A stretch of 38,304 nt of DNA from a virus, in the IMG/VR virus record IMGVR_UViG_3300045051_000975, positions 1 to 38,304 of that record. The stretch is one strand, 5' to 3'. How positions within the stretch are numbered: position 1 is the stretch's first letter; each line of letters starts with the position of its first letter. Below are positions 3,484 through 29,011 of this stretch, in pieces. The translations under genes were made by a program, and so were the position numbers. The notes under the pieces were generated by a model. That model worked only from the letters and a program-made list of their open reading frames with translations, was not told where the DNA came from and did not search any database.

Positions 3484-4007
3484 AATGGCACCGGCTCTTT
3501 GACCGGCAGCTCTGTTTGCACCGCGACCGGCGCGGCTTGTCGCTCGGCGCGTTCTTTCTTTTGAGCCCGGCTCGCCATCGTCACGAAACGCTTGTTAATC
3601 GCCTTCGGATCGAAGTGGTCGAGCGGTTCACCACTGGCGCTGCGTGCGCCCGAGAAGCGCTCGCGCGCGAGCTTTCCCGAGCCCTTCGATCCATACGCCT
3701 TGCGCTCGTACCAGTCAGCCTGCCGCGCCCGGTTGTACGCGTGATAATCCTCCTGGCAATCAGCCCAGCGCGCCGATCGATCGAGGTCGGCCGGATGCGC
3801 AAGAAAATCCAAATAGCAAAACAACGCCGTCACCTCGTCCCGCCCGAACGCCCCGCCACTCGTTGTGACCAGCGGACCGCCCACCGCTTCCATGCACTGC
3901 AACACGACCTTTCGACGCCGCTCGTCGTCGCTCTTTTTCCAGCCATTCGCCGCGCAAGCAGCCGGCCAGAAATCCCGGAAATACGTTACGCGTTCGGAGG
4001 GGCTCAT
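3480..4007 (-). CDS. Hypothetical protein
   Basis: The protein has 175 residues, linked by 4-bp overlaps to both the integrase gene upstream and the 122-residue gene downstream. Its N-terminus (SERVTYFRDFWPAACAANGW) is followed by a helical region, and the C-terminal third is basic and rich in Lys/Arg/Gln. No catalytic motif is visible. Its tight coupling to the recombinase gene makes an accessory DNA role possible, but that is inference only. Confidence 0.65.
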   Translation of the reverse strand: MSPSERVTYFRDFWPAACAANGWKKSDDERRRKVVLQCMEAVGGPLVTTSGGAFGRDEVTALFCYLDFLAHPADLDRSARWADCQEDYHAYNRARQADWYERKAYGSKGSGKLARERFSGARSASGEPLDHFDPKAINKRFVTMASRAQKKERAERQAAPVAVQTELPVKEPVPF

Positions 4008-5044
4008 ACTGCCAACGCCTCCACGCTCGCACGCACGTTCGGATTATTCGCCGACGTGTGAGTGTAGATCAGCGTCGTCTCAACGCTGACGTGCCCCAAA
4101 ATATCCTGCACCGACCGAATATCGACCCCACTCTCAAGCAAGTGAGTCGCATACGCGTGCCGTAGCCGATGAGGCGTTGCCAATCCCAGCAAACCAACCC
4201 GATCCGCAGCCTCGCGCATCACCGTCTGAAGCGTCTTGTCCATCAGCCGCCAGCGCACGATATGGCCAAGCCGCGGATGGCGACAGCGGCCAGGTGCCGC
4301 GAAAACGAAAAACCACGGCCACGCCAACCCATACCGCGGGCACTTATTATAGACTGGATCCGGCAATGTGACCGGCACGCGGTCGATCTGATCTCGCTGC
4401 CAGAGCGTCTGCACGCGATCGATCTGCGCCTTGAGATCAGGGAGAATCGCGCGAGGCAGCGGCACCACTCGATCTTTGTTTCCTTTTCCGCCGCGCAGCA
4501 GGAGTTGGGATTTTTCCCAATTGATATCCTGCACGCGCAAATTCAGCAGATCGGTGATCCGCATTCCCGTGAAATAGAGCAGCCGGAAAATCAGGCGGTA
4601 CGGGTAGTCGTCGCTATCTACTGCCGCACCGATGAGCTCGCGCACCTGCTCGCGCGTTAACACCGTCGGTAGCCGATTCGCCATCTTCGGCCGAGGAATT
4701 TCACCAAGCCGGCCAAGCGGTTCCTTCCGCACCTCCTTGTAGTAATAGACGAGCGCGTTGAGCGCTTGCTTGAGCGTGGTGCCGCTGCGCGGACTTGGAC
4801 CCGTGACGAGCTGCGCGAGGTAACGCGTCACGCGATCGCTCGAATCCATCGCGGTGCGCGCATCGGGCGACATGGCTAGCCAAATTCCATACCGCCGTAC
4901 CCACATGCAATAGCAGCGCTCGGTTGTGAGCGACCACTTGCGTAGCCGGATGTCCGTCCGCGTGGCTTCGATCTGCGTATTGATTTGCTCGCGCTGCTTT
5001 TCTGACAGCCGCAGCCAGCGGATTCTAGTGATCGAAACCTTCAT
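4004..5044 (-). CDS. Tyrosine recombinase of integron-integrase (IntI) type
   Basis: The protein has 346 residues. A SAM-like core-binding domain (residues 25-110, with LRKWSLTTERCYCMWVRRY) precedes the catalytic domain. Catalytic set: R162 (TGMRITDLL), K190 (GKGNKDRVVPLP), H292 and R295 (PHRLRHAYATHLLE), H318 (LGH) and the nucleophile Y328 (YTHT). About 102 residues separate K190 from H292, roughly 30 more than in Xer proteins. The extra segment (LPDPVYNKCPRYGLAWPWFF) lines up with the helix insertion that marks IntI proteins. Integron integrases recombine folded single-stranded attC sites with attI. Here the gene sits in the early operon of a transposable phage that already has a DDE transposase, so it is not needed for phage integration. 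Overlaps the downstream gene by 4 bp. Confidence 0.85.
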   Translation of the reverse strand: MKVSITRIRWLRLSEKQREQINTQIEATRTDIRLRKWSLTTERCYCMWVRRYGIWLAMSPDARTAMDSSDRVTRYLAQLVTGPSPRSGTTLKQALNALVYYYKEVRKEPLGRLGEIPRPKMANRLPTVLTREQVRELIGAAVDSDDYPYRLIFRLLYFTGMRITDLLNLRVQDINWEKSQLLLRGGKGNKDRVVPLPRAILPDLKAQIDRVQTLWQRDQIDRVPVTLPDPVYNKCPRYGLAWPWFFVFAAPGRCRHPRLGHIVRWRLMDKTLQTVMREAADRVGLLGLATPHRLRHAYATHLLESGVDIRSVQDILGHVSVETTLIYTHTSANNPNVRASVEALAV

Positions 5045-8423: not shown

Positions 8424-8692
8424 GACGCACCGCCTTCCGCTTTCGCAAGCTCGCGTGCACCCGCAGGCGACAGCGTCGCGAAGAAATACGGTTTAAACTC
8501 CCCCTCCGCTGCCTGGGCGGGCAACAGGATCACGAGCGGCGGCACGATCAGCTCGAGCTCCCGCAGCACGAGCATCGTGTGGCGGTCGAAAACTTCCGCG
8601 CCATTCCGAATGGTCTGCAACGCGCGCAGCTCATGGGGCAAGAGACGGAATTCAGCGGGCGCTTCCACGTTCTCGAGGGCATCGGTGCTCAT
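8420..8692 (-). CDS. Hypothetical protein following MuB
   Basis: The protein has 90 residues from the ATG at 8690-8692, selected for its 4-bp overlap with the MuB stop. It contains LLPHELRALQTIRNGAEVFD and a hydrophobic stretch (LELIVPPLVILLPA), then KPYFFATLSPAGARELAKAE, which looks like a winged-helix-type wing and end helix. It may be a small regulator; unproven. Confidence 0.55.
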   Translation of the reverse strand: MSTDALENVEAPAEFRLLPHELRALQTIRNGAEVFDRHTMLVLRELELIVPPLVILLPAQAAEGEFKPYFFATLSPAGARELAKAEGGAS

Positions 8693-9828
8693 GACTCGTC
8701 CCCCTCGTCTTCGCTGAGTCCGACCGCCGCTCCGTCGACTGCCTCGAGGTGATCGAGCGTCACGGCCTTGCCACGCGCGAGCGACTTTGCTTTTTGCAGC
8801 CGCGAGTAGAGAATCCGCAGCGGTCCAGGCTGGCGCGCCCAGGTGTTGAGCAGCGGATAACACGCCGCGAAATCCTCGACGCCAAACTGCTCCGCGATCG
8901 ATTGCACGTCGCTTTTCGGCAGCTTCCCGTCGAGCTGCAGCACGTCCTCAATGCCACCGATCCGGGAAACGAACTGCTTGAAATAATTCTTGTCCTTCCC
9001 GCTCATCAGCTCGGAGCGGAAGATCGGCGTCCACGTCATGATGATCGTGCAGTCGGTGTCGTCTTGGAGCTCCTGCAGGTAGCTGAAGATCGGCTGCACC
9101 GGTCCCGTCTTCGGGTTGTAGAGCTTCTGCACGTTTTCGATGATGATCGTGCGCGTGTCGTTCACGTTCTCCTCGATCTTCGCCAGGCGCTCGTGCGTGC
9201 GCACGTGGGGGAGGATGTTGTAGCAGCAGCCGAGCTTCATCAGGAAGCGGGCGAGCGACGGATTCGGCGCTTCGAACCGCACCGTCGATCCGTGGTTATT
9301 CAAAAGCGTGTAGTGCTTTGTCGCCTGCGTTTTCCCCGTGCCGGTGTCGCCTTCGATCGCGCCAAACTTACAGACCGCATCGCGCGCGCGCTTCCGGTCG
9401 ATGTAGTTCCGAACCTTCTTCCAGACCGAGAGCTCCTCGTTGTAAGCGACCTTGCCGGTCTGCTCGGCGATGAGCTCGTGCTTTTTCAGCAGTGCCACCA
9501 TTTCGAGGAGAGCGGTGATCGCTTTCTCGCCGGCCGCTTGGCGGAAGTAGCGCCCGGTCGTGACCTGATAAATGTACTGCTCCTTGTTTTGATAGGTCGA
9601 CGGCTCGAGCTTTTTCAGGAGCGCAGCGACGATCGCGGGCGAGCCGTTGCAGCGCGCCATCATGAATTGATAAAGCCACGCTGAGGCGTGTTTCGTGGCC
9701 TCGGGATAGTGGGCGATCGACGCCTCGAATTGGCTGAGATCGCGGCGCACGGTGAGCCGCTGATCGTTGTTTGCGACCGCAAGCGCGGAGGTCCCCCGCG
9801 CATCGGTTTCAGTTGTGAGTGCTGTCAT
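8689..9828 (-). CDS. MuB-like transposition AAA ATPase
   Basis: The protein has 379 residues. Walker A is GDTGTGKT at 160-167. The Walker B-like strand TIIIEN is at 227-232 (with Glu-Asn in place of the usual Asp-Glu), and a sensor-type strand CTIIMTW follows. The N-terminal 150 residues are helical. In the Mu family this ATPase coats target DNA as a helical filament, delivers it to the transposase and confers target immunity. It follows the transposase gene by 83 bp, a gap holding only a GC-rich hairpin (about 9878-9901). Length and gene order match the family (MuB about 312 residues). Confidence 0.85.
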   Translation of the reverse strand: MTALTTETDARGTSALAVANNDQRLTVRRDLSQFEASIAHYPEATKHASAWLYQFMMARCNGSPAIVAALLKKLEPSTYQNKEQYIYQVTTGRYFRQAAGEKAITALLEMVALLKKHELIAEQTGKVAYNEELSVWKKVRNYIDRKRARDAVCKFGAIEGDTGTGKTQATKHYTLLNNHGSTVRFEAPNPSLARFLMKLGCCYNILPHVRTHERLAKIEENVNDTRTIIIENVQKLYNPKTGPVQPIFSYLQELQDDTDCTIIMTWTPIFRSELMSGKDKNYFKQFVSRIGGIEDVLQLDGKLPKSDVQSIAEQFGVEDFAACYPLLNTWARQPGPLRILYSRLQKAKSLARGKAVTLDHLEAVDGAAVGLSEDEGDES

Positions 9829-20750: not shown

Positions 20751-23036
20751 ATGCCCAGCGCACTCGACATTCTGCGACAGGATCAGGAGCGCTCTCTCCG
20801 CGTCGCGGGTTCGCTCGCGCTCGCGAAGCGCGATGCTGCTCCAGCGATCGTGGGAAAATCCGGCGGCAGCGTGCCTGCGTATCTGTTCGCACAGCCAGAT
20901 CTCGGAGAATCTTCACCGACCGCACGGCTTACGCGCCCCTACGCGCAATCGCCGTGGATTCAGCGCGCGATCAATCTCAAGGCCGGGGAAATTTCCGCCG
21001 TGCCGGTGAAGTTCTACGAGGGCGACAACGAATTCGCCTCGCCGGATTTCGACGCGTTCTGGGCCGCGCCCTTCATCCGTCATGACCGCACCCGCTTCTC
21101 CCTCGGCGAAGGCCAGCTCCACTTGACCGGCTGGCTCGATCTTGCGGGCGAGTACTTTGTTCTCCGCGGCGACGACTGGTTGGTTCCGTTTCCCGAGGTC
21201 AGCATGGCAGCGGGCAAGCTCTCGCCGCTCGTGATCGCGCGGCCTGATCGGATGCGTCCGGTTTACGCCGGCGGGGAAATGCTTGGCTGGGAGTTCACCG
21301 ACGCGATGGGCAAGCGCTGGCCGCTCCTGCCGGAGCAAGTCGAGCACGTCTGTCTGTGGAATCCGTACGACGAGAAGCGCGCGCTCGCGCCCGTCGAGTC
21401 GGTCATGCTTGCGGCCGAGTCGGATTATCTCGCGGGGCTCTATGTCCGGAATCTGATGCGCAACAATGGCGACCAAGGCGTTTACGTCATCGCCAAGAAC
21501 GGAATCCCGACGGATCCACAGCGCGATCAGATCACCGAGCAATTGAGCGCGAAGCGTCGGGCGTCGCTGCGTGGTGATTATCGTCCGGTATTTTTGACGG
21601 GCGACATCGCGATCGAAGATGCGAAAGCGCAGGTACCGGACGCCAATCTCAACGCCGGCCGCCTGCTCGATCGTCACACGATTTTCATCGGCCTTGGGCT
21701 GCCGGCGTCGATGGCGGACGTTCAGGCGAGTTATTCGATCGGCTCGGATTCAGACCGTGCGCGGTTGATCAGCGGCACGTGTCAGCCGCTCGCGAAGCTC
21801 ATCAACGCTTCCTTCGGCCGTATCGGTTCGAGGATGGTCAGCCGCCAGCTCATCGCTGAGAGCGACTGGGATGAGCACCCGGTGTTGCAGCAGATACGTC
21901 GCGAGCGCTTCGCTTCCGCAAAGGATCTCTGGGATCGCGGTATTTCTTGGAAGGTCATCAATGACCTGCTCGATCTCGGCATGCGGCCGTTCCCTGGATG
22001 GGACGTTGCTTACATGTCGTTCAGCGTGGCGCCGGTCGATCTTTCCGGGACGACACTTGATCGCACGCCCGCGACTGATCCCTCGCTCGCAGACACAACT
22101 GAGGAGACCGGAAGCGAAGACGATCCGGAGATGCGGCGCATCAAGCTCGCGCTGCTCGCCCGTCGGCGTGCAAAGATGAAATGCGTCGAGGCGAAGGCGG
22201 ATCCTTTTGCAGAGTTCGTTTGTGCATGCGGCGGCGCGCTCATCGCGAAGGCTCGCGATTCGAAAGAGCGCAAGCTGTGGGAATCGTACATGCAGTTCCG
22301 CCGTCCGACGGTGAACGCATTCCAGGCATCGTTCCGTCGCGTGCTCATGAAGGCGCGGCAGGAAGTGCTCCGCAAGATTGAGGCGGCACCGAACCAGGGT
22401 AAATCGATCGAGACGAAATCGGCCGCTGCGGATTTCCTTTTCAACCTGGCCGACTTTGTCGCGGATTTTCACGCGGCGATGCGCAACCGGCAGAAGGATG
22501 CGCTCGCGACCGCTGGTAAACAGTTCTTCGACGAGATCAATTTCAAGGATCCATTCCAGCTGCCGCAAAAAGAGGTCCTGGATTTCCTCGCCGAGCGGAA
22601 AAACAAGCTGCGCGACGTCCCGCAAGAAACCTTCGATCGACTGAAGAAGTCGCTCGAGGAGGGCCTGAACAACGGGGAAACACAGGACGAGCTCGGCGGC
22701 CGCGTGAAGGATCTTTTCAATGACATGGCCGACGGTGAGGCGCGGCGTATCGCACTCACCGAGACGGGTGCGGCCTACGGTGCCGGCCGCCATCTCGGTA
22801 TGAAGCAAGCCGGGATCCAGCGGAAGAAGTGGCTCACCTCTGGCAACGATAACGTCCGCGCCGCACACGAAGCCGCGAACGGGCAGACCGTCGGGGTCGA
22901 TGAACCGTACGTCATCGTCAACGAGGACGGGGCCACGGACGAGATCATGTTCCCCGGCGACTCCGGCGGCGCTCCTTGGAACGTGATCAACTGCCACTGC
23001 ATCAGCCTCGCGCAGGCAGACAAGGGGGACGAATGA
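20751..23036 (+). CDS. Portal protein fused to MuF-type head-morphogenesis domain
   Basis: The protein has 761 residues. Residues about 60-430 follow the HK97-family portal pattern: SPWIQRAINLKAGEISAVPV, a central wing region (EQVEHVCLWNPYDEKRALAP) and IFIGLGLPASMADVQASYSI. A helical linker leads to a MuF (SPP1 gp7) domain at about 660-761: ALTETGAAYGAGRHLGMKQA, KKWLTSGNDNVRAAHEAANG and the end VINCHCISL. In Mu these are two genes (gp29 and gp30). The portal forms the DNA-translocating dodecamer at the capsid vertex; MuF proteins are minor head proteins. The frame is open throughout, so the fusion is real in this sequence. Confidence 0.85.
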   Translation: MPSALDILRQDQERSLRVAGSLALAKRDAAPAIVGKSGGSVPAYLFAQPDLGESSPTARLTRPYAQSPWIQRAINLKAGEISAVPVKFYEGDNEFASPDFDAFWAAPFIRHDRTRFSLGEGQLHLTGWLDLAGEYFVLRGDDWLVPFPEVSMAAGKLSPLVIARPDRMRPVYAGGEMLGWEFTDAMGKRWPLLPEQVEHVCLWNPYDEKRALAPVESVMLAAESDYLAGLYVRNLMRNNGDQGVYVIAKNGIPTDPQRDQITEQLSAKRRASLRGDYRPVFLTGDIAIEDAKAQVPDANLNAGRLLDRHTIFIGLGLPASMADVQASYSIGSDSDRARLISGTCQPLAKLINASFGRIGSRMVSRQLIAESDWDEHPVLQQIRRERFASAKDLWDRGISWKVINDLLDLGMRPFPGWDVAYMSFSVAPVDLSGTTLDRTPATDPSLADTTEETGSEDDPEMRRIKLALLARRRAKMKCVEAKADPFAEFVCACGGALIAKARDSKERKLWESYMQFRRPTVNAFQASFRRVLMKARQEVLRKIEAAPNQGKSIETKSAAADFLFNLADFVADFHAAMRNRQKDALATAGKQFFDEINFKDPFQLPQKEVLDFLAERKNKLRDVPQETFDRLKKSLEEGLNNGETQDELGGRVKDLFNDMADGEARRIALTETGAAYGAGRHLGMKQAGIQRKKWLTSGNDNVRAAHEAANGQTVGVDEPYVIVNEDGATDEIMFPGDSGGAPWNVINCHCISLAQADKGDE

Positions 23037-23683
23037 GCACGTACGAACAACGCCACGCCAAACGGTATGCGCTCTCGCTCGAGGCGCTGCGGCCGCTGCT
23101 TAAGCCGGGCATGCACGTTGTCGAGTTGGGAGCGCGAAGCACATTTGCAGACGCACTTCAGCGCGAGCTGCAGGTAGAGGTCGAATCCAGCGAGGACGAA
23201 GATCTGCGCTTCCTCGAATGTTATCCCCCCGACCTGCCGTTGGTGGTCGACGCCGTGCTTTGCATGGAAGTGATCGAGCACATCCACGATCAGGAGGCAA
23301 AGCCGTACTCGACCGAGTGGTCTGGCAGTGGCGTCGCGCAAATGCTCAAGGCCGCGCTCTCCGCGTTGAAGCCCGGCGGGCTTCTGTTCCTCACCACGCC
23401 GAATGCCGCGTCTCTGAATGTGCTCCACAAAGTTCTCATGCAGCAGCCGCCGATGGTTTATCGGCCGCATGTACGCGAGTACGGCCCGCACGAGCTCGCT
23501 TACATTGTACAGGCTGCTGGCTTCGAGCGGGTCACCGTCACGTCGCATGACTCGTGGAACAACGACTGCATGCCACCCGACGCGGAGCGCCGATTGCGCG
23601 AAGTCATTCCAGCGCTCGGGTACCGCGCCGACTGCCGAGGCGAAAACCTTTTTCTCACTGCGTTCAAACCTGCTTCGACATGA
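23033..23683 (+). CDS. SAM-dependent methyltransferase in head operon
   Basis: The protein has 216 residues from the ATG at 23033 (ATGA overlap). Class I Rossmann methyltransferase: motif I HVVELGA (28-34), acidic/post-I region VDAVLCMEVIEHIHD (72-86), then LKPGGLLFLTTPNAASLN and AYIVQAAGFERVTV near the end. The pattern matches small-molecule, sugar or protein methyltransferases (Methyltransf_11/23 type) rather than DNA methylases, since no NPPY or PC motif is seen. The placement between portal and protease, coupled to both, suggests modification of a virion component or glycan. Substrate unknown. Confidence 0.8.
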   Translation: MSTYEQRHAKRYALSLEALRPLLKPGMHVVELGARSTFADALQRELQVEVESSEDEDLRFLECYPPDLPLVVDAVLCMEVIEHIHDQEAKPYSTEWSGSGVAQMLKAALSALKPGGLLFLTTPNAASLNVLHKVLMQQPPMVYRPHVREYGPHELAYIVQAAGFERVTVTSHDSWNNDCMPPDAERRLREVIPALGYRADCRGENLFLTAFKPAST

Positions 23684-24423
23684 ACTCCACGCTCGCTCTC
23701 ATTCGCTCCGCGTCGCCGGAGAAACCGTTACGCCGCGAAATCTCGGTGGAGGCGAAGGTCCTCAACGAGTCCGAAGGCCTCGTGCGCTATGTCGCGAGCG
23801 ACGAAACGCTCGATTGCTACAACGAGATCGTGCGCGCGAACGGCTGGCGCTTTACGCACTTCTCGAAGAACGCGCCGTTCGTCGATTCGCACGACTACTC
23901 GAGCATCAAGTCGCTGCTCGGCCAGGTCGTCAGCTTTGCGGTGCAGGGCAATCAATTGATCGAGGACGTGAAGTACGCGCTCACGCCCGACGGGAATACG
24001 CTCGCCGATTGGACCTTCCGCATGGTCCGCGACAAGTTTCTGCGGGCTGTATCCGTCGGCTTTGTACCGTCGAATTACGCCACGAAGTGGGACGCCGATA
24101 AGTCCAAGCTGCTCGCGCAGATCGCCGAGCTCGGAATGGACGCTCAAGCCGCGGCTAAACTCAGCTGCGTCTATATCGAGCAGGAGCAGATCGAGCTCTC
24201 GCAGTGCGTGATCGGTGCAAATCCGAACGCGCTCGCGAAATCCTTCGAGACGGTGGCGCGCGCCTACAAGGCGGGCTGCCTCAGCGAGGAGAACGTTCAC
24301 CAATTTTCCGCCCTGATCGCCAACGGAGAACCCGTGAGCTCGGCCCGTTCCTGCGCCGACGCTGAGCTCGCCCGGCGGCGCAGACGAGCCGCGATCATGC
24401 TGGAAATCTCGAAGTTCAATTAA
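23680..24423 (+). CDS. HK97-type prohead protease
   Basis: The protein has 247 residues, from the ATG at 23680 (ATGA overlap). It has the S78 prohead-protease pattern: a beta-rich start with VRYVASDETLDCYNEIV, catalytic His at 71 in APFVDSHDY, and the catalytic Ser at 125 in RAVSVGFVP. The C-terminal part has QIELSQCVIGANPNAL. It matures the capsid by cleaving the scaffold part of the major capsid protein. It is followed by the capsid gene after 7 bp. This replaces the protease/scaffold gene of Mu itself. Confidence 0.85.
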   Translation: MNSTLALIRSASPEKPLRREISVEAKVLNESEGLVRYVASDETLDCYNEIVRANGWRFTHFSKNAPFVDSHDYSSIKSLLGQVVSFAVQGNQLIEDVKYALTPDGNTLADWTFRMVRDKFLRAVSVGFVPSNYATKWDADKSKLLAQIAELGMDAQAAAKLSCVYIEQEQIELSQCVIGANPNALAKSFETVARAYKAGCLSEENVHQFSALIANGEPVSSARSCADAELARRRRRAAIMLEISKFN

Positions 24424-24430
24424 CCATTAA

Positions 24431-25789
24431 ATGAAAAGATTACTCTACATTCTGCAGTATCTCGCAGCCGTGACTCTCTGCACGGCGCACAATATGTTCA
24501 AGCGCGGCGGCCTTGCGACAGTTCCGCTCGCTTTTGCGGTCGTCGGTGAAGGCGGCGACGACTTCGAAAAGGAAGTTCTCACTGGTTTCAAATCCATGCG
24601 GAAAAGCCAGGAGGATTTGACGGCGAAATTCGACAATCTCGATCGCGAGACGAAAAAGGCGTTCGAAGAACTCACCAAGGTAAAGAACAACCTCAACTCG
24701 GTCGCCGAGTTCGAGCAGAAGCTTGCCAAGGTGAATTTGCTGCTGCGCCGGGAGCAGCGCGCCGCTTACGATCCGATCAAGCGAATCGAGTGCGATGACG
24801 AATTGCGCACGCGCATCAACGCTGCGGTTCGTCTCGCCTCCAAGGATCCTGCGATTCGCGCGATGGGCGAGGAGATGGCAAAGAACTTGACCAAGCGCTC
24901 GCTGTATAGCGAAGCCACGCCTGGCTCGACCTTCATCACCGCCGATCTCGCCAGCGAGATTTACGACACGCTCGCCAGCTACGGCGTCTGGCGCACGTTC
25001 GGCGTGCAACGCCTCGGCACTAAAACGACCAAGTTCCCGGTCTCCACGGCCCGGCCGGTCGCGCTGGCTGTTCGCAAACTCTCCAACCGAAAACTCACCG
25101 AAGATGCGACGATCGCCGGCACGTCCGTTGATTGCGATGTCGTGCTCTGGGGTGTGCTGCTCGGTGTCGAGCGCGAACTGCTCGAGGATGCTGAATACGA
25201 TGTGACGAGCTATGTGCTGGAGAACTTCGCCGAGGCGATGGCGTTTCGCCTCGACCACCTCTGCCTCACAGCGGACGGTGGCAACGACGAGTTCGACTCC
25301 GATATTTCCGGCGTGCTCACCACAGGCACCGCTGCGACGGCCACTGCCGGCAACACGTCGATCGCCACGCTGGATTTGGAAGACTTCGTCAACTGTCTCA
25401 CGACGGTCGACGAAGGCGTGCTGAATCGGCCGACTCGCTGGTGGGCGCATCCGCGCAACATCGCGCGCTTCGCGCTGGTTCGCGACGACAACAATCGTCC
25501 GATCTTCCAGACGGCGCTCGAAATGCCGACGGCAGGTATTGGCTCGATCCTCGGTTCGCCGGTCACCCCGGCCAACGTGATGCCGAGCACAAATGCCGCC
25601 GGCGATAAAGTGGCGGTGTTCGGCGATCCTCGCGGTCACGTGCTCGGGCTTCGCACCGACATCGGCTTCGATACGAGCGACGACTTCGCCTTCGACGGTG
25701 TGAAACGGATGTTCCGCGGCTTGGCCCGCGCGGGAGCAAAGACCCGCAAGGCTGGCGCGTTCGCCGTCCTCACGCTGCCCGCAAGCTGA
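24431..25789 (+). CDS. Major capsid protein, HK97 fold
   Basis: The protein has 452 residues. Residues about 50-100 form a helical delta/scaffold domain (KSMRKSQEDLTAKFDNLDRE, KAFEELTKVKNNLNSVAEFE). The mature shell protein likely starts around 135-150 and shows typical HK97 features: TPGSTFITADLASEIYDTLA, a central LLGVERELLEDAEYDV with SYVLENFAEAMAFRLDHLCL, and the C-terminal GDPRGHVLGLRTDIGF. The N-terminus (RLLYILQYLAAVTLCTAHN) looks like a signal peptide, which is odd; a downstream ATG at 24494 (MFKRGGLATV) may be the true start. Two hairpins follow the gene. Confidence 0.85.
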   Translation: MKRLLYILQYLAAVTLCTAHNMFKRGGLATVPLAFAVVGEGGDDFEKEVLTGFKSMRKSQEDLTAKFDNLDRETKKAFEELTKVKNNLNSVAEFEQKLAKVNLLLRREQRAAYDPIKRIECDDELRTRINAAVRLASKDPAIRAMGEEMAKNLTKRSLYSEATPGSTFITADLASEIYDTLASYGVWRTFGVQRLGTKTTKFPVSTARPVALAVRKLSNRKLTEDATIAGTSVDCDVVLWGVLLGVERELLEDAEYDVTSYVLENFAEAMAFRLDHLCLTADGGNDEFDSDISGVLTTGTAATATAGNTSIATLDLEDFVNCLTTVDEGVLNRPTRWWAHPRNIARFALVRDDNNRPIFQTALEMPTAGIGSILGSPVTPANVMPSTNAAGDKVAVFGDPRGHVLGLRTDIGFDTSDDFAFDGVKRMFRGLARAGAKTRKAGAFAVLTLPAS

Positions 25790-25838: not shown

Positions 25839-25937
25839 ATGATTCCAAAGCCACAGATTAAAAACCCGCCAGTGCCGGTCGTCACGCGCCCGATGCCGCC
25901 ATCGCCGTCGCGACCATCACCCATCGTTGCGAAATGA
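25839..25937 (+). CDS. 32-residue proline-rich microprotein
   Basis: The ATG at 25839 starts IPKPQIKNPPVPVVTRPMPP followed by SPSRPSPIVAK. Its stop overlaps the ATG of the next gene (ATGA). About a third of the residues are Pro, so it is likely extended. It could be a minor virion peptide or just a coupling leader for the next gene. Confidence 0.45.
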   Translation: MIPKPQIKNPPVPVVTRPMPPSPSRPSPIVAK

Positions 25938-27046
25938 TTTTCCCGTCGGTCAAAGCTCATCCCCGGTTCCTGCACGTCATCGAAGGCGCGAAGTTCGCGA
26001 CTGCGTTACGCAACTACAACGCCTCGCTCATCCAATTCGACGGCGGGTTTGTGATCGCATACCGGAGCGAAAACGCGCGCGGCTGGTCGCGAATCGCCGT
26101 GCAGAGTTTGAAGAAAAATCTTCAGCCGAGCTCGCTCGCGTTCATTGAGTGCCCCGAGGGCGTCGAGCATGAGGATCCACGTTTGTTCGTGGCCGACGGT
26201 AAGCTCTATCTTGCCTTCATCGAATTAAACGGTCGCCATCGCGACGGACTCTTCACGCAAGAGCTCGTCGAGCTCGGCGAGGATGCGAAGGCGGTGCGTC
26301 GAATTCCGCTCGCGATCGGGCAGAATGGGAAACGCAGCGAGAAGAACTGGATTTTCTTCGACGTCGGCGAGGGGAAGATCGGTGTCATCTATTCCCTGCG
26401 TCCGCACCGGGTCTTCATTATTTCATCGGAGACTGGATCGGTAGTCGAGGAGCACACGACACCGGGAATCGAGCGCTGGCCCTTTGGCACGCTGAGTGGG
26501 GGCACGCCCGCGGTTCGATTTGGGGATAGCTTCATTCACGTATTCCATTCGCACCAGCCGGACGCGAAACGTTCGCGCCGATACAGCATGAGCGCGGCGG
26601 CCTTCTCCGCGAAGGCTCCTTACGAGTGCATTTCGGTCAGCAAAGAGCCGCTGGTCTGGGCGAGCGACGAGGACGTTTCGATCGTGAATCCGCGCCGCCC
26701 CAATTGGAACCCGCTCTGCGTGTTCCCGGCCGGTTTGTTTATCTCGAACGCTCTCGATCCGCTCTTCGCGGTTTCCGCCGGGATCAATGACACGTCGATG
26801 GCGAGCTTCGGGTTCAAGCTCGCGGATCTGAATTTGGTCGCCGTCGAAAAACTCCCGAGAAACGCGGCGATCGTTGCTGGAAAAGAAATGCCGCGCGGCG
26901 CGGTGCGCGTGCGGGTCACGCCGGCTCCGCACGGAAAGGTGCGAAGCCTTGGCGAGCCCGGCGGACGCTACGTCACCGGCGATGAATTCATCACCACGCC
27001 TGCGCGCGCGGCTGCGCTCGGCGCACAAGTAGAGGTCATCGGATGA
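25934..27046 (+). CDS. GH130-like five-bladed beta-propeller with phage-type C-terminus
   Basis: The protein has 370 residues. Blade motifs agree with the glycoside phosphorylase/hydrolase family GH130 and its relatives: EHEDPRLF at 78-85 (Asp 81 is the candidate acid), EKNW at 136-139, SGGTPAVRFGDSFIHVFHS at 188-206, and SAGINDTSMA at 281-290. Residues about 320-370 differ: VRVRVTPAPHGKVRSLG, then YVTGDEFITTPARAAALG, a pattern seen in small phage head-associated proteins. A sugar-active or sugar-binding domain may thus be tethered to the virion. It sits between the capsid and connector genes and is coupled to both. Activity not proven. Confidence 0.7.
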   Translation: MIFPSVKAHPRFLHVIEGAKFATALRNYNASLIQFDGGFVIAYRSENARGWSRIAVQSLKKNLQPSSLAFIECPEGVEHEDPRLFVADGKLYLAFIELNGRHRDGLFTQELVELGEDAKAVRRIPLAIGQNGKRSEKNWIFFDVGEGKIGVIYSLRPHRVFIISSETGSVVEEHTTPGIERWPFGTLSGGTPAVRFGDSFIHVFHSHQPDAKRSRRYSMSAAAFSAKAPYECISVSKEPLVWASDEDVSIVNPRRPNWNPLCVFPAGLFISNALDPLFAVSAGINDTSMASFGFKLADLNLVAVEKLPRNAAIVAGKEMPRGAVRVRVTPAPHGKVRSLGEPGGRYVTGDEFITTPARAAALGAQVEVIG

Positions 27047-27705
27047 ACGCCGGATTTTCAAACCTCGCCTCGCTCAAGGAATGGCTGCTCACGGAGGCGC
27101 TGCGCACGAGCACCGACTATGACTCGCAGATTCTAGCGATCGGGCTCGGCGTCGCCGGGATCTTCGAGACGCATTGCAACCGGAAGTTTGCGCGACAGGT
27201 CGGCGCGACGTACGAGTTCCGCGCCGAATTGGATCGGATCGTGATCGATCGCGCGCCGGTCGAGCAGATTACCAAGATCGAGTTGCGCGACCCGTTCGGT
27301 GCAGACTGGGTCGACCAAGGCACCGTCTCGGCATTGCTCGATTACCTAAACGAGGAAGCGGGGCTCGTCGCGCTGCTGACTCCGCTTGGTACGTATCGCG
27401 GTCGCGGTCGAATCACTTTCGACGGTGGCTTCTGGTGGAATCAACAGGAGCCTGACTATGACCCGCCGGTAACGCCTACGGAAGAGGATCCCGATTTATC
27501 GGCGCAGCCTGAGGGAAGCAACGCGCTGCCGGATAATCTGAAACTCGCTTGGCTCCTCCAGTGCGAGCACGTCTGGCAGCAGCGGGACAAGCTCGGCCTA
27601 GCCATCGCCAAATCGCCGACGACGGATTCAGCCATCGCACGCACCGAAATCCTCCCGCTCGTGAAGGAGCAGCTACAACCCTTTGTCCGCTACGCGATGC
27701 TCTGA
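27043..27705 (+). CDS. Head-tail connector (HK97 gp6-like)
   Basis: The protein has 220 residues. The helical start with LASLKEWLLTEALRTSTDYD, then IFETHCNRKFARQVGATYEF (the typical NRxF signature), IVIDRAPVEQITKIELRD and a late segment PDNLKLAWLLQCEHVWQQRD fit the gp6/phiE125 gp8 adaptor family. The protein forms the ring below the portal. ATGA overlap with the GH130-like gene. It has a Pro/Glu-rich insertion before the last helices. Confidence 0.8.
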   Translation: MNAGFSNLASLKEWLLTEALRTSTDYDSQILAIGLGVAGIFETHCNRKFARQVGATYEFRAELDRIVIDRAPVEQITKIELRDPFGADWVDQGTVSALLDYLNEEAGLVALLTPLGTYRGRGRITFDGGFWWNQQEPDYDPPVTPTEEDPDLSAQPEGSNALPDNLKLAWLLQCEHVWQQRDKLGLAIAKSPTTDSAIARTEILPLVKEQLQPFVRYAML

Positions 27706-27707
27706 CC

Positions 27708-28283
27708 ATGGCCGACGCGTTCAAATTCGATCTTACGAGCAATGCCACGGAAATCGTGAGCAAGCTCGAGCGTTTCCCGACCGATATGGCCCAGGCGATC
27801 GGCGCAGCGATGCGGAAGGAAAACGAACTGACGATCAACGCAGCGATCGAAAAGCGCATGAGCGGTCCGCGTCCTGCCGTTCTCGGACGCGTCTCGAGCG
27901 AGCTTGCGCGGAGTCTGCACCAGAGCGACGTGGTTATCGCAGGCAACACGATCCTCTCGGCTATCGGTTCAAACAAGAGTTACGCCGGCTTCCACGAGCG
28001 CGGTTTTCAGGGCTACGAGTACGTCGACGCATATGACCGGAAGCAAAACGTCTACGCAGGGGGCTCGAAGACGTACAAACAGATGGACGCACGCGGGCAC
28101 ATCAAGACCCGGACGCGCAAACCGAAATCTGTCTCTGGTACTGTGCGTGTGAGAGCACATCGGCGGAAATTCAATTACGCCGGGCGGCCATACATTTGGC
28201 CAACGCTGCAGGAGCGCGCGCCGAATTATTCGAAGTCGATTAGTGAAGCAATCGTGCAGGTTTGGAATGGAGGTGCTTCATGA
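27708..28283 (+). CDS. Tail-completion / HK97 gp10-like morphogenesis protein
   Basis: The protein has 191 residues from the ATG at 27708, two bases after the connector stop. Helical N-terminus (LERFPTDMAQAIGAAMRKEN) then VSSELARSLHQSDVVIAGNT, SAIGSNKSYAGFHERGFQGY and the end RPYIWPTLQERAPNYSKSIS. The pattern Y-A-x-x-x-E-x-G and the late R-P-(F/Y)-x-x-x-x-L are typical of HK97 gp10 and Mu virion-morphogenesis proteins. It probably joins head and tail. Confidence 0.7.
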   Translation: MADAFKFDLTSNATEIVSKLERFPTDMAQAIGAAMRKENELTINAAIEKRMSGPRPAVLGRVSSELARSLHQSDVVIAGNTILSAIGSNKSYAGFHERGFQGYEYVDAYDRKQNVYAGGSKTYKQMDARGHIKTRTRKPKSVSGTVRVRAHRRKFNYAGRPYIWPTLQERAPNYSKSISEAIVQVWNGGAS

Positions 28284-29011
28284 GCGCCGAGGCACTGACC
28301 CGCCAACTTCTACTGCGCGTGCAGAACGATGCGTACGGCCGCATCCTGGCTCATTCGTATTTCTCGGACGTCGCGATCATCCAGGAGCGAAAAGCACTTA
28401 CGACGCAGGAAATCGCGAAGCTTCTGAGCACGGTGAAAGGTCGGTCGAATAAGGTAGGCGCAGCGATCATCGTGCACCGTCCATCGTATTTTCCCGCGAG
28501 CGATGACACGTCGGGCCGAGGTCAAATTCTGCAATCTTTCACCGCGCTCGAGCACCCGACGATCAACGCAGGCGACATCGGCACCGGAAAAAGCGCTGAG
28601 GAGCTTTCGCTCGAGCTCTTTCTTTTGTTCAACCAGGTCGCGGCCTCCGTGCCGTCGCAGGTGTACACCGCTTTTCCAGGCGGCGCAGTGACGCCAGATG
28701 ATTCTTTCGAAGGTTTTAATGCGTGGTTAACCCGTCTTCAATTGTTCGGAAACACCGAGCACATGGAGCGCTGCGGCGTCCCGCTGATCACTCCCGATTC
28801 GGGTGCGTCGCCACAGAGCGTGACACTCACGACCGCAACCGGTGGCGCGTCGATTTACTACACGACCGACGGCTCCTTCCCCTCCGATCAAAACGAGGAG
28901 GCGACGCTTTACACCGGCGCGATTGCGATCGCTGAGCCGACGACCATTCGAGCGGCCGCACAAAAGACCGGCATGCAGCAGTCGGGCATCGCCGAAGCGA
29001 CTTTCACCTAA
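28280..29011 (+). CDS. Virion protein with chitobiase C-terminal (Ig-like) domain
   Basis: The protein has 243 residues from the ATG at 28280 (ATGA overlap). The N-terminal part (to about 165) is of unknown fold and contains IIVHRPSYFPASDDTSGRG and ELSLELFLLFNQVAASVPSQ. Residues about 168-243 form a chitobiase/beta-hexosaminidase C-terminal-type domain: SVTLTTATGGASIYYTTDGS, LYTGAIAIAEPTTIRAAAQ. The position fits a tail-terminator-like protein decorated with an Ig-like domain. The domain may bind cell-surface sugars. Confidence 0.65.
   Translation: MSAEALTRQLLLRVQNDAYGRILAHSYFSDVAIIQERKALTTQEIAKLLSTVKGRSNKVGAAIIVHRPSYFPASDDTSGRGQILQSFTALEHPTINAGDIGTGKSAEELSLELFLLFNQVAASVPSQVYTAFPGGAVTPDDSFEGFNAWLTRLQLFGNTEHMERCGVPLITPDSGASPQSVTLTTATGGASIYYTTDGSFPSDQNEEATLYTGAIAIAEPTTIRAAAQKTGMQQSGIAEATFT

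Follow-up and report, generated by a model that had tools for sequence, protein, structure and literature searches.

The 38,304-b window analysed here, which is an IMG/VR virus record in full, contains a gene between its major capsid protein (MCP, 24431-25789) and head-tail adaptor (27043-27705) whose predicted product is a resident head-cluster protein with a GH130/GT108-like five-bladed propeller at its N-terminus, an arrangement that homology firmly supports. Sequence comparison shows that in at least three head modules putative propellers of this family carry the local MCP-adjacent small protein at their C-terminus, namely in that of the window's gene (25934-27046), a lambda-type module and a module with a third MCP type. 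We consider it somewhat probable that the product is an enzyme of the GH130/GT108 clan, tethered to the capsid, which makes or modifies virion glycans, where we infer both the docking and the work on glycans. The fusion gene and its neighbours are arranged as follows.

20751..23036, + strand: portal fused to a Mu-F-like head morphogenesis domain (domain match)
23033..23683, + strand: SAM methyltransferase (Methyltransf_23, Pfam E 1.4e-12), located after the portal, whose stop its start overlaps (ATGA), and before the protease
23554..24423, + strand: prohead protease-like protein (NF045541 E 3.1e-9; phrog_4523); true start probably near 23690
24431..25789, + strand: MCP, HK97-type (Phage_capsid E 1.4e-27)
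25839..25937, + strand: proline-rich ORF, 32 aa; stop overlaps (ATGA) the start of the fusion gene
25934..27046, + strand: fusion gene, 370 aa; five-bladed GH130/GT108-like propeller followed by a head-cluster domain at the C-terminus
25958..26848, + strand: propeller domain, residues ~9-305 (AlphaFold2 model against GH130 structures, Z 25)
26876..27043, + strand: C-terminal domain, residues 315-370, homologous to an ORF that stands alone at this site in related phages
27043..27705, + strand: head-tail adaptor (phrog_442 E 3.6e-5); start overlaps (ATGA) the fusion gene stop

The overlap makes translational coupling of the proline-rich ORF with the fusion gene possible, and an internal ATG at residue 318 (MPRGAV...) could be the start of a separate protein of ~53 aa. 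The same record encodes a tyrosine integrase and a MuB-like transposition AAA protein, at 4004-5044 and 8689-9828 (-); together with the portal-Mu F fusion, they suggest a transposable or temperate tailed phage. A protein in the tail-tube position (28262-29011) ends in a chitobiase/Fn3-associated Ig-like domain (CHB_HEX_C_1 E 1.1e-16).

Single-sequence searches with the 25934-27046 protein returned no Pfam, PHROGs, phage or plasmid match and no meaningful PDB match, and its relatives were therefore sought by profile scans of IMG/VR. PF04041 was matched at E <= 0.1 by 32 of the 37 family members, of which L001 passes the Pfam cut-off (57.6 bits against 26, E 1.3e-15), and the family profile matched GH130 structures at E 1.7e-14. 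An AlphaFold2 model of the window's protein, built from a 14-row alignment, has a mean pLDDT of 79.4, and a five-bladed propeller fold is near certain for this model. Foldseek with the propeller model placed GH130 phosphorylases on top (E 6.8e-11), while a structural aligner gave Z-scores of ~25 for GH130 (residues 9-307), 20-22 for GT108 and 17-19 for GH43-type structures. The preliminary description of this DNA, made from the letters alone, had proposed a five-bladed propeller of the GH130 type; the predicted model bears out the fold, with GH130 the best match and above GH43-type structures. The assignment to GH130 itself stands on fold and active-site residues but not at the Pfam threshold, which is passed by L001 and not by the window's protein. 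Matches to the propeller model in BFVD include the algal and giant virus proteins Q8QNP4, A0A481ZE78 and A0A3G5AFP7, with the names EsV-1-17, Pithovirus LCPAC404 and a Solivirus protein named fucosyltransferase.

GH130 beta-mannoside phosphorylases and hydrolases (4udg, 5b0p, 7fip, 9fj8; PF04041) share with the window's protein the five-bladed propeller, by profile and fold matches, and the positions of the EDPR Asp, R44, H205, Y217 and D286. They differ from it in sequence, at 12-17% identity and with an EKNW signature in a protein that lacks a Pfam match, and in its phage late-gene context and fused head-cluster domain. The GT108 mannosyltransferase-phosphorylases of Leishmania (6q4w-6q50) have the same five-bladed fold and provide a precedent for its use as a nucleotide-sugar glycosyltransferase, although their fold match lies below that of GH130 and no sequence match with the window's protein is detectable. 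The GT91 fungal beta-mannosyltransferases (PF12141) gave sub-threshold matches from two family members, including L017 (E 1.6e-4), but none from the window's protein; a PF12141 profile run against nine records returned no match, and the controls were equally silent. We found no earlier report of a GH130-like enzyme in phages or viromes in the searchable literature.

The four motifs read in the preliminary description are present in order in the open 370-aa frame 25934-27046 (+), as EDPR (residues 80-83), EKNW (136-139), GGTPAV (189-194) and GINDTS (283-288). Across 36 non-redundant relatives, whose identity to the window's protein is mostly 21-34%, R44, D81, R83, E136, K137, N138, W139, F141, Y153, H205, Y217, P265, G283 and N285 are invariant (36/36), and E80 and D286 are kept in 35. 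Because the motif residues are invariant or nearly so, the motifs are not a product of chance. The putative active-site features are listed below.

26171..26182, + strand: EDPR motif (80-83), with D81 aligned at the proposed GH130 catalytic Asp position (role of this Asp, PMC4599007)
26339..26350, + strand: EKNW motif (136-139), invariant in the family
26546..26548, + strand: H205, invariant, aligning with the YHG histidine of GH130
26780..26791, + strand: GIND motif (283-286), with D286 aligning with the Asp of the GH130 YGxxD motif

Mutants E141Q, D142N, K199A and D363A of the GH130 enzyme BT3780 were all inactive (PMC4599007). Sequence alignment and spacing, rather than structural superposition, make E80, D81, K137 and D286 the likely equivalents of E141, D142, K199 and D363, and a catalytic role of the propeller is likely because its conserved residues map in this way to positions that inactivate BT3780 when mutated. 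K137 possibly corresponds to the lysine that confers beta-1,2 specificity (Lys199), and the spacing from catalytic Asp to Lys is 56 residues (D81-K137) against 57 in BT3780. In the low-resolution family alignment, residues 142-200 contain no well conserved basic or acidic column, the GH130 phosphate-binding residues could not be mapped, and no conserved acidic pair like Glu227/Glu268 of BT3780 was seen.

The origin of the C-terminal domain emerged from syntenic relatives found by scanning with the record's own portal and MCP, several of which have a stand-alone ORF of 60-77 aa in the gap between MCP and adaptor. A BLAST comparison of the tail (residues ~315-370) with all forward-strand ORFs of at least 30 aa in 24 related-MCP loci gave six matches only (E <= 1), the best at 1e-7 (L185 5778-5993 and L197 5782-6015). 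All six are ORFs just after the MCP; five precede an identified adaptor gene, and the L188 locus ends too early. An HMM of seven MCP-following ORFs scored the window's protein at 30.5 bits, while shuffled-tail controls reached at most 5.9 bits. Both results agree with the earlier suggestion that the last ~50 residues are a small head protein and, because the tail matches stand-alone ORFs between MCP and adaptor, the putative propeller has been added to a protein already resident in the head cluster. Homology became clear with the nearer MCP relatives only. Among the ORFs of the syntenic portal/MCP relatives, propeller profiles had no match and none was found to match the methyltransferase 23033-23683. 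Two other candidates for the tail were rejected: the lambda-type tail, against which, as against its stand-alone homologues, similarity was not significant, and the syntenic ORF L098, which matched at 47.6% over 21 aa only, with 23 of 20,000 shuffles as good. The tail is modelled with low confidence in the AlphaFold2 model.

Most MCP relatives have, between MCP and adaptor, an ORF of ~150-195 aa with a signal-peptide-like start, absent from the 38,304-b record; it has the look of a secreted protein inside a head gene cluster. Examples are L185 5246-5731, L186 4176-4628, L197 5315-5776, L202 4422-4862, L203 5719-6189, L102 9012-9587 and L105 3238-3810.

A profile of the nearest propeller relatives brought in 65 loci and revealed fusions in other head modules. 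The gene order in 22 lambda-type loci is portal, protease/MCP, propeller with tail, FII, as far as each locus extends. An HMM made from the stand-alone MCP-adjacent small proteins of isolated phages only (Synechococcus phages S-LBS1, S-CBS1 and S-CBS3, Roseobacter phage CRP-811 and Acinetobacter phage Alexa) matched these 22 tails at E 8.6e-10 to 0.004. With the third MCP type, the tails of L125 (1.6e-8), L151 (1.2e-4) and L160 (0.0075) are related to the small protein after their own MCP type, of which L125 and L160 also retain a stand-alone copy. The tails of L119, L121, L123, L129 and L131 resemble this small protein by eye, though not significantly, and were left out of the fusion count. 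Head modules of several unrelated kinds have the propeller gene next to the MCP. A given tail type matches the protein of its own lineage only; consequently, separate fusions or tail exchange occurred, either of which implies selection for the local head protein. A maximum-likelihood tree places the window's protein beside the lambda-type clade with modest support (87/75) and a long branch. Further fusions in other phage lineages thus lend weight to the suggestion, first raised from the window's gene, that a sugar-active domain is attached to the phage head.

A comparison with lambda gpFI, described as attached to the prohead's gpE lattice (PMC4856287), indicates what such tails may do. Lambda gpFI is a small protein encoded between MCP and FII, and the fusion genes take the same position, beside FII in the lambda-type loci and before a head-tail joining gene in the window (25934-27046); the lambda-type tail model is weakly like the C-terminal domain of gpFI. 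Modelled alone (pLDDT 84), the lambda-type tail superimposed on this domain (2lsm) with Z 5.9 and rmsd 2.2 over 46 residues (Foldseek E 0.5); no Foldseek match had E below 0.001, and the unrelated GINS and ribosomal L9 domains scored alike. The fusions differ from gpFI in that a sugar-enzyme propeller replaces its N-terminal half, and the window's tail is not detectably similar in sequence to the lambda-type tail. The predicted gpFI likeness is a pointer to capsid binding, a lead rather than proof.

The propeller is also recurrently associated, beyond the MCP, with sugar or methyl modification genes. A GT4 gene lies directly upstream of it in 27/36 non-redundant loci (phrog_2170, E 1.5e-53 in one example), and other loci have GT2, a GT9-like fusion, or Methyltransf_24 or FkbM methyltransferases. 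A search of IMG/VR with the window's methyltransferase (23033-23683) found two close relatives; in both cases the next gene upstream encodes a GH130-like propeller and lies near an MCP. Nine loci with the third MCP type also have a Methyltransf_23 gene close to the propeller. The pair of propeller and methyltransferase is recurrent, though split in the 38,304-b record. A PF00535 (GT2) profile had no match in this record; therefore, the host or the propeller itself would have to supply the donor or core glycan.

In our proposed mechanism, the C-terminal head-cluster domain would bind the capsid or prohead in the way gpFI binds the gpE lattice, and hold the N-terminal propeller at the shell. The propeller would then transfer (or trim) a sugar on capsid glycans, most likely a beta-linked mannosyl or similar residue, and the methyltransferase may cap this sugar; here we infer docking, enzymatic activity, reaction direction, sugar and target alike. 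Phage capsids can carry glycans, as in Che8 (PMC11256854, PMC12619734). Like capsid-glycosylating mycobacteriophages of this kind, the window's phage would use its own sugar-modification genes on capsid proteins. The Che8-type phages depend on glycosyltransferases, however, and we found neither a GH130-like enzyme nor a head-protein fusion reported there. To our knowledge, the few known cases of phage capsid glycosylation are tied to stand-alone glycosyltransferases. A bolder version, in which phages repeatedly fused the propeller to their own gpFI-like MCP-binding protein and so obtained a capsid-anchored glycosyltransferase that glycosylates the shell during assembly without a classical glycosyltransferase, is one we put forward tentatively and regard as doubtful.

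We favour the making or editing of the phage's own glycans over action on the host surface because glycosyltransferases neighbour the propeller in other phages and methyltransferases recur. It is unlikely that the capsid instead displays a domain that binds or hydrolyses host-surface or environmental glycans, whether by lectin-like adhesion or by local depolymerisation. Such display would fit fusion to MCP-adjacent small proteins in several lineages, as well as the lambda-type loci, where no glycosyltransferase or methyltransferase of the tested kinds lies beside the propeller; yet other lineages pair the propeller with intracellular glycosyltransferases and methyltransferases. GH130 does include hydrolases (PMC4599007), but the acidic pair of BT3780 has no conserved counterpart at the low resolution of our alignment, and the catalytic positions kept are more than a pure lectin needs.

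We give still less weight, as a rather improbable reading, to an intracellular enzyme of glycan metabolism, an auxiliary metabolic phosphorylase or a modifier of host surface glycans, whose fusion to a head domain is incidental. GH130 enzymes are mostly catabolic phosphorylases, and in the cellular homologue L017 the propeller is joined to a polysaccharide pyruvyl transferase; against this, in several unrelated modules the gene is part of the late head operon, next to the MCP, and at least three show it fused to the local head protein, a recurrence not expected of an incidental fusion. Sugar decoration of DNA by phage glycosyltransferases is known (Pyle 2024, as cited in PMC12619734), but a role in DNA hypermodification, with the sugar placed on phage DNA, is very improbable here: the genes lie with head proteins rather than nucleotide metabolism and are fused to head-cluster proteins.

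Because unrelated lineages have joined a propeller of this kind to a head protein of their own, our results suggest that the capsids of many phages have a sugar enzyme attached. If the preferred reading of a capsid-tethered enzyme is true, joining a sugar enzyme to a head-cluster protein would give phages a general means of capsid glycosylation, capsid glycans would be likely in a large number of IMG/VR phages, and the fusions would offer a natural way of anchoring proteins on proheads. The GH130/GT108 fold as a viral transferase also becomes testable.

The propeller domain occurs inside sugar-polymer enzymes as well. GH130-like propellers are fused to a GT9-like region in L010 (4402-6837) and L002 (1631-4129), and the pyruvyl transferase fusion of L017 (2743-5130) is from Acetobacteraceae, with L111 and L112 alike by resemblance.
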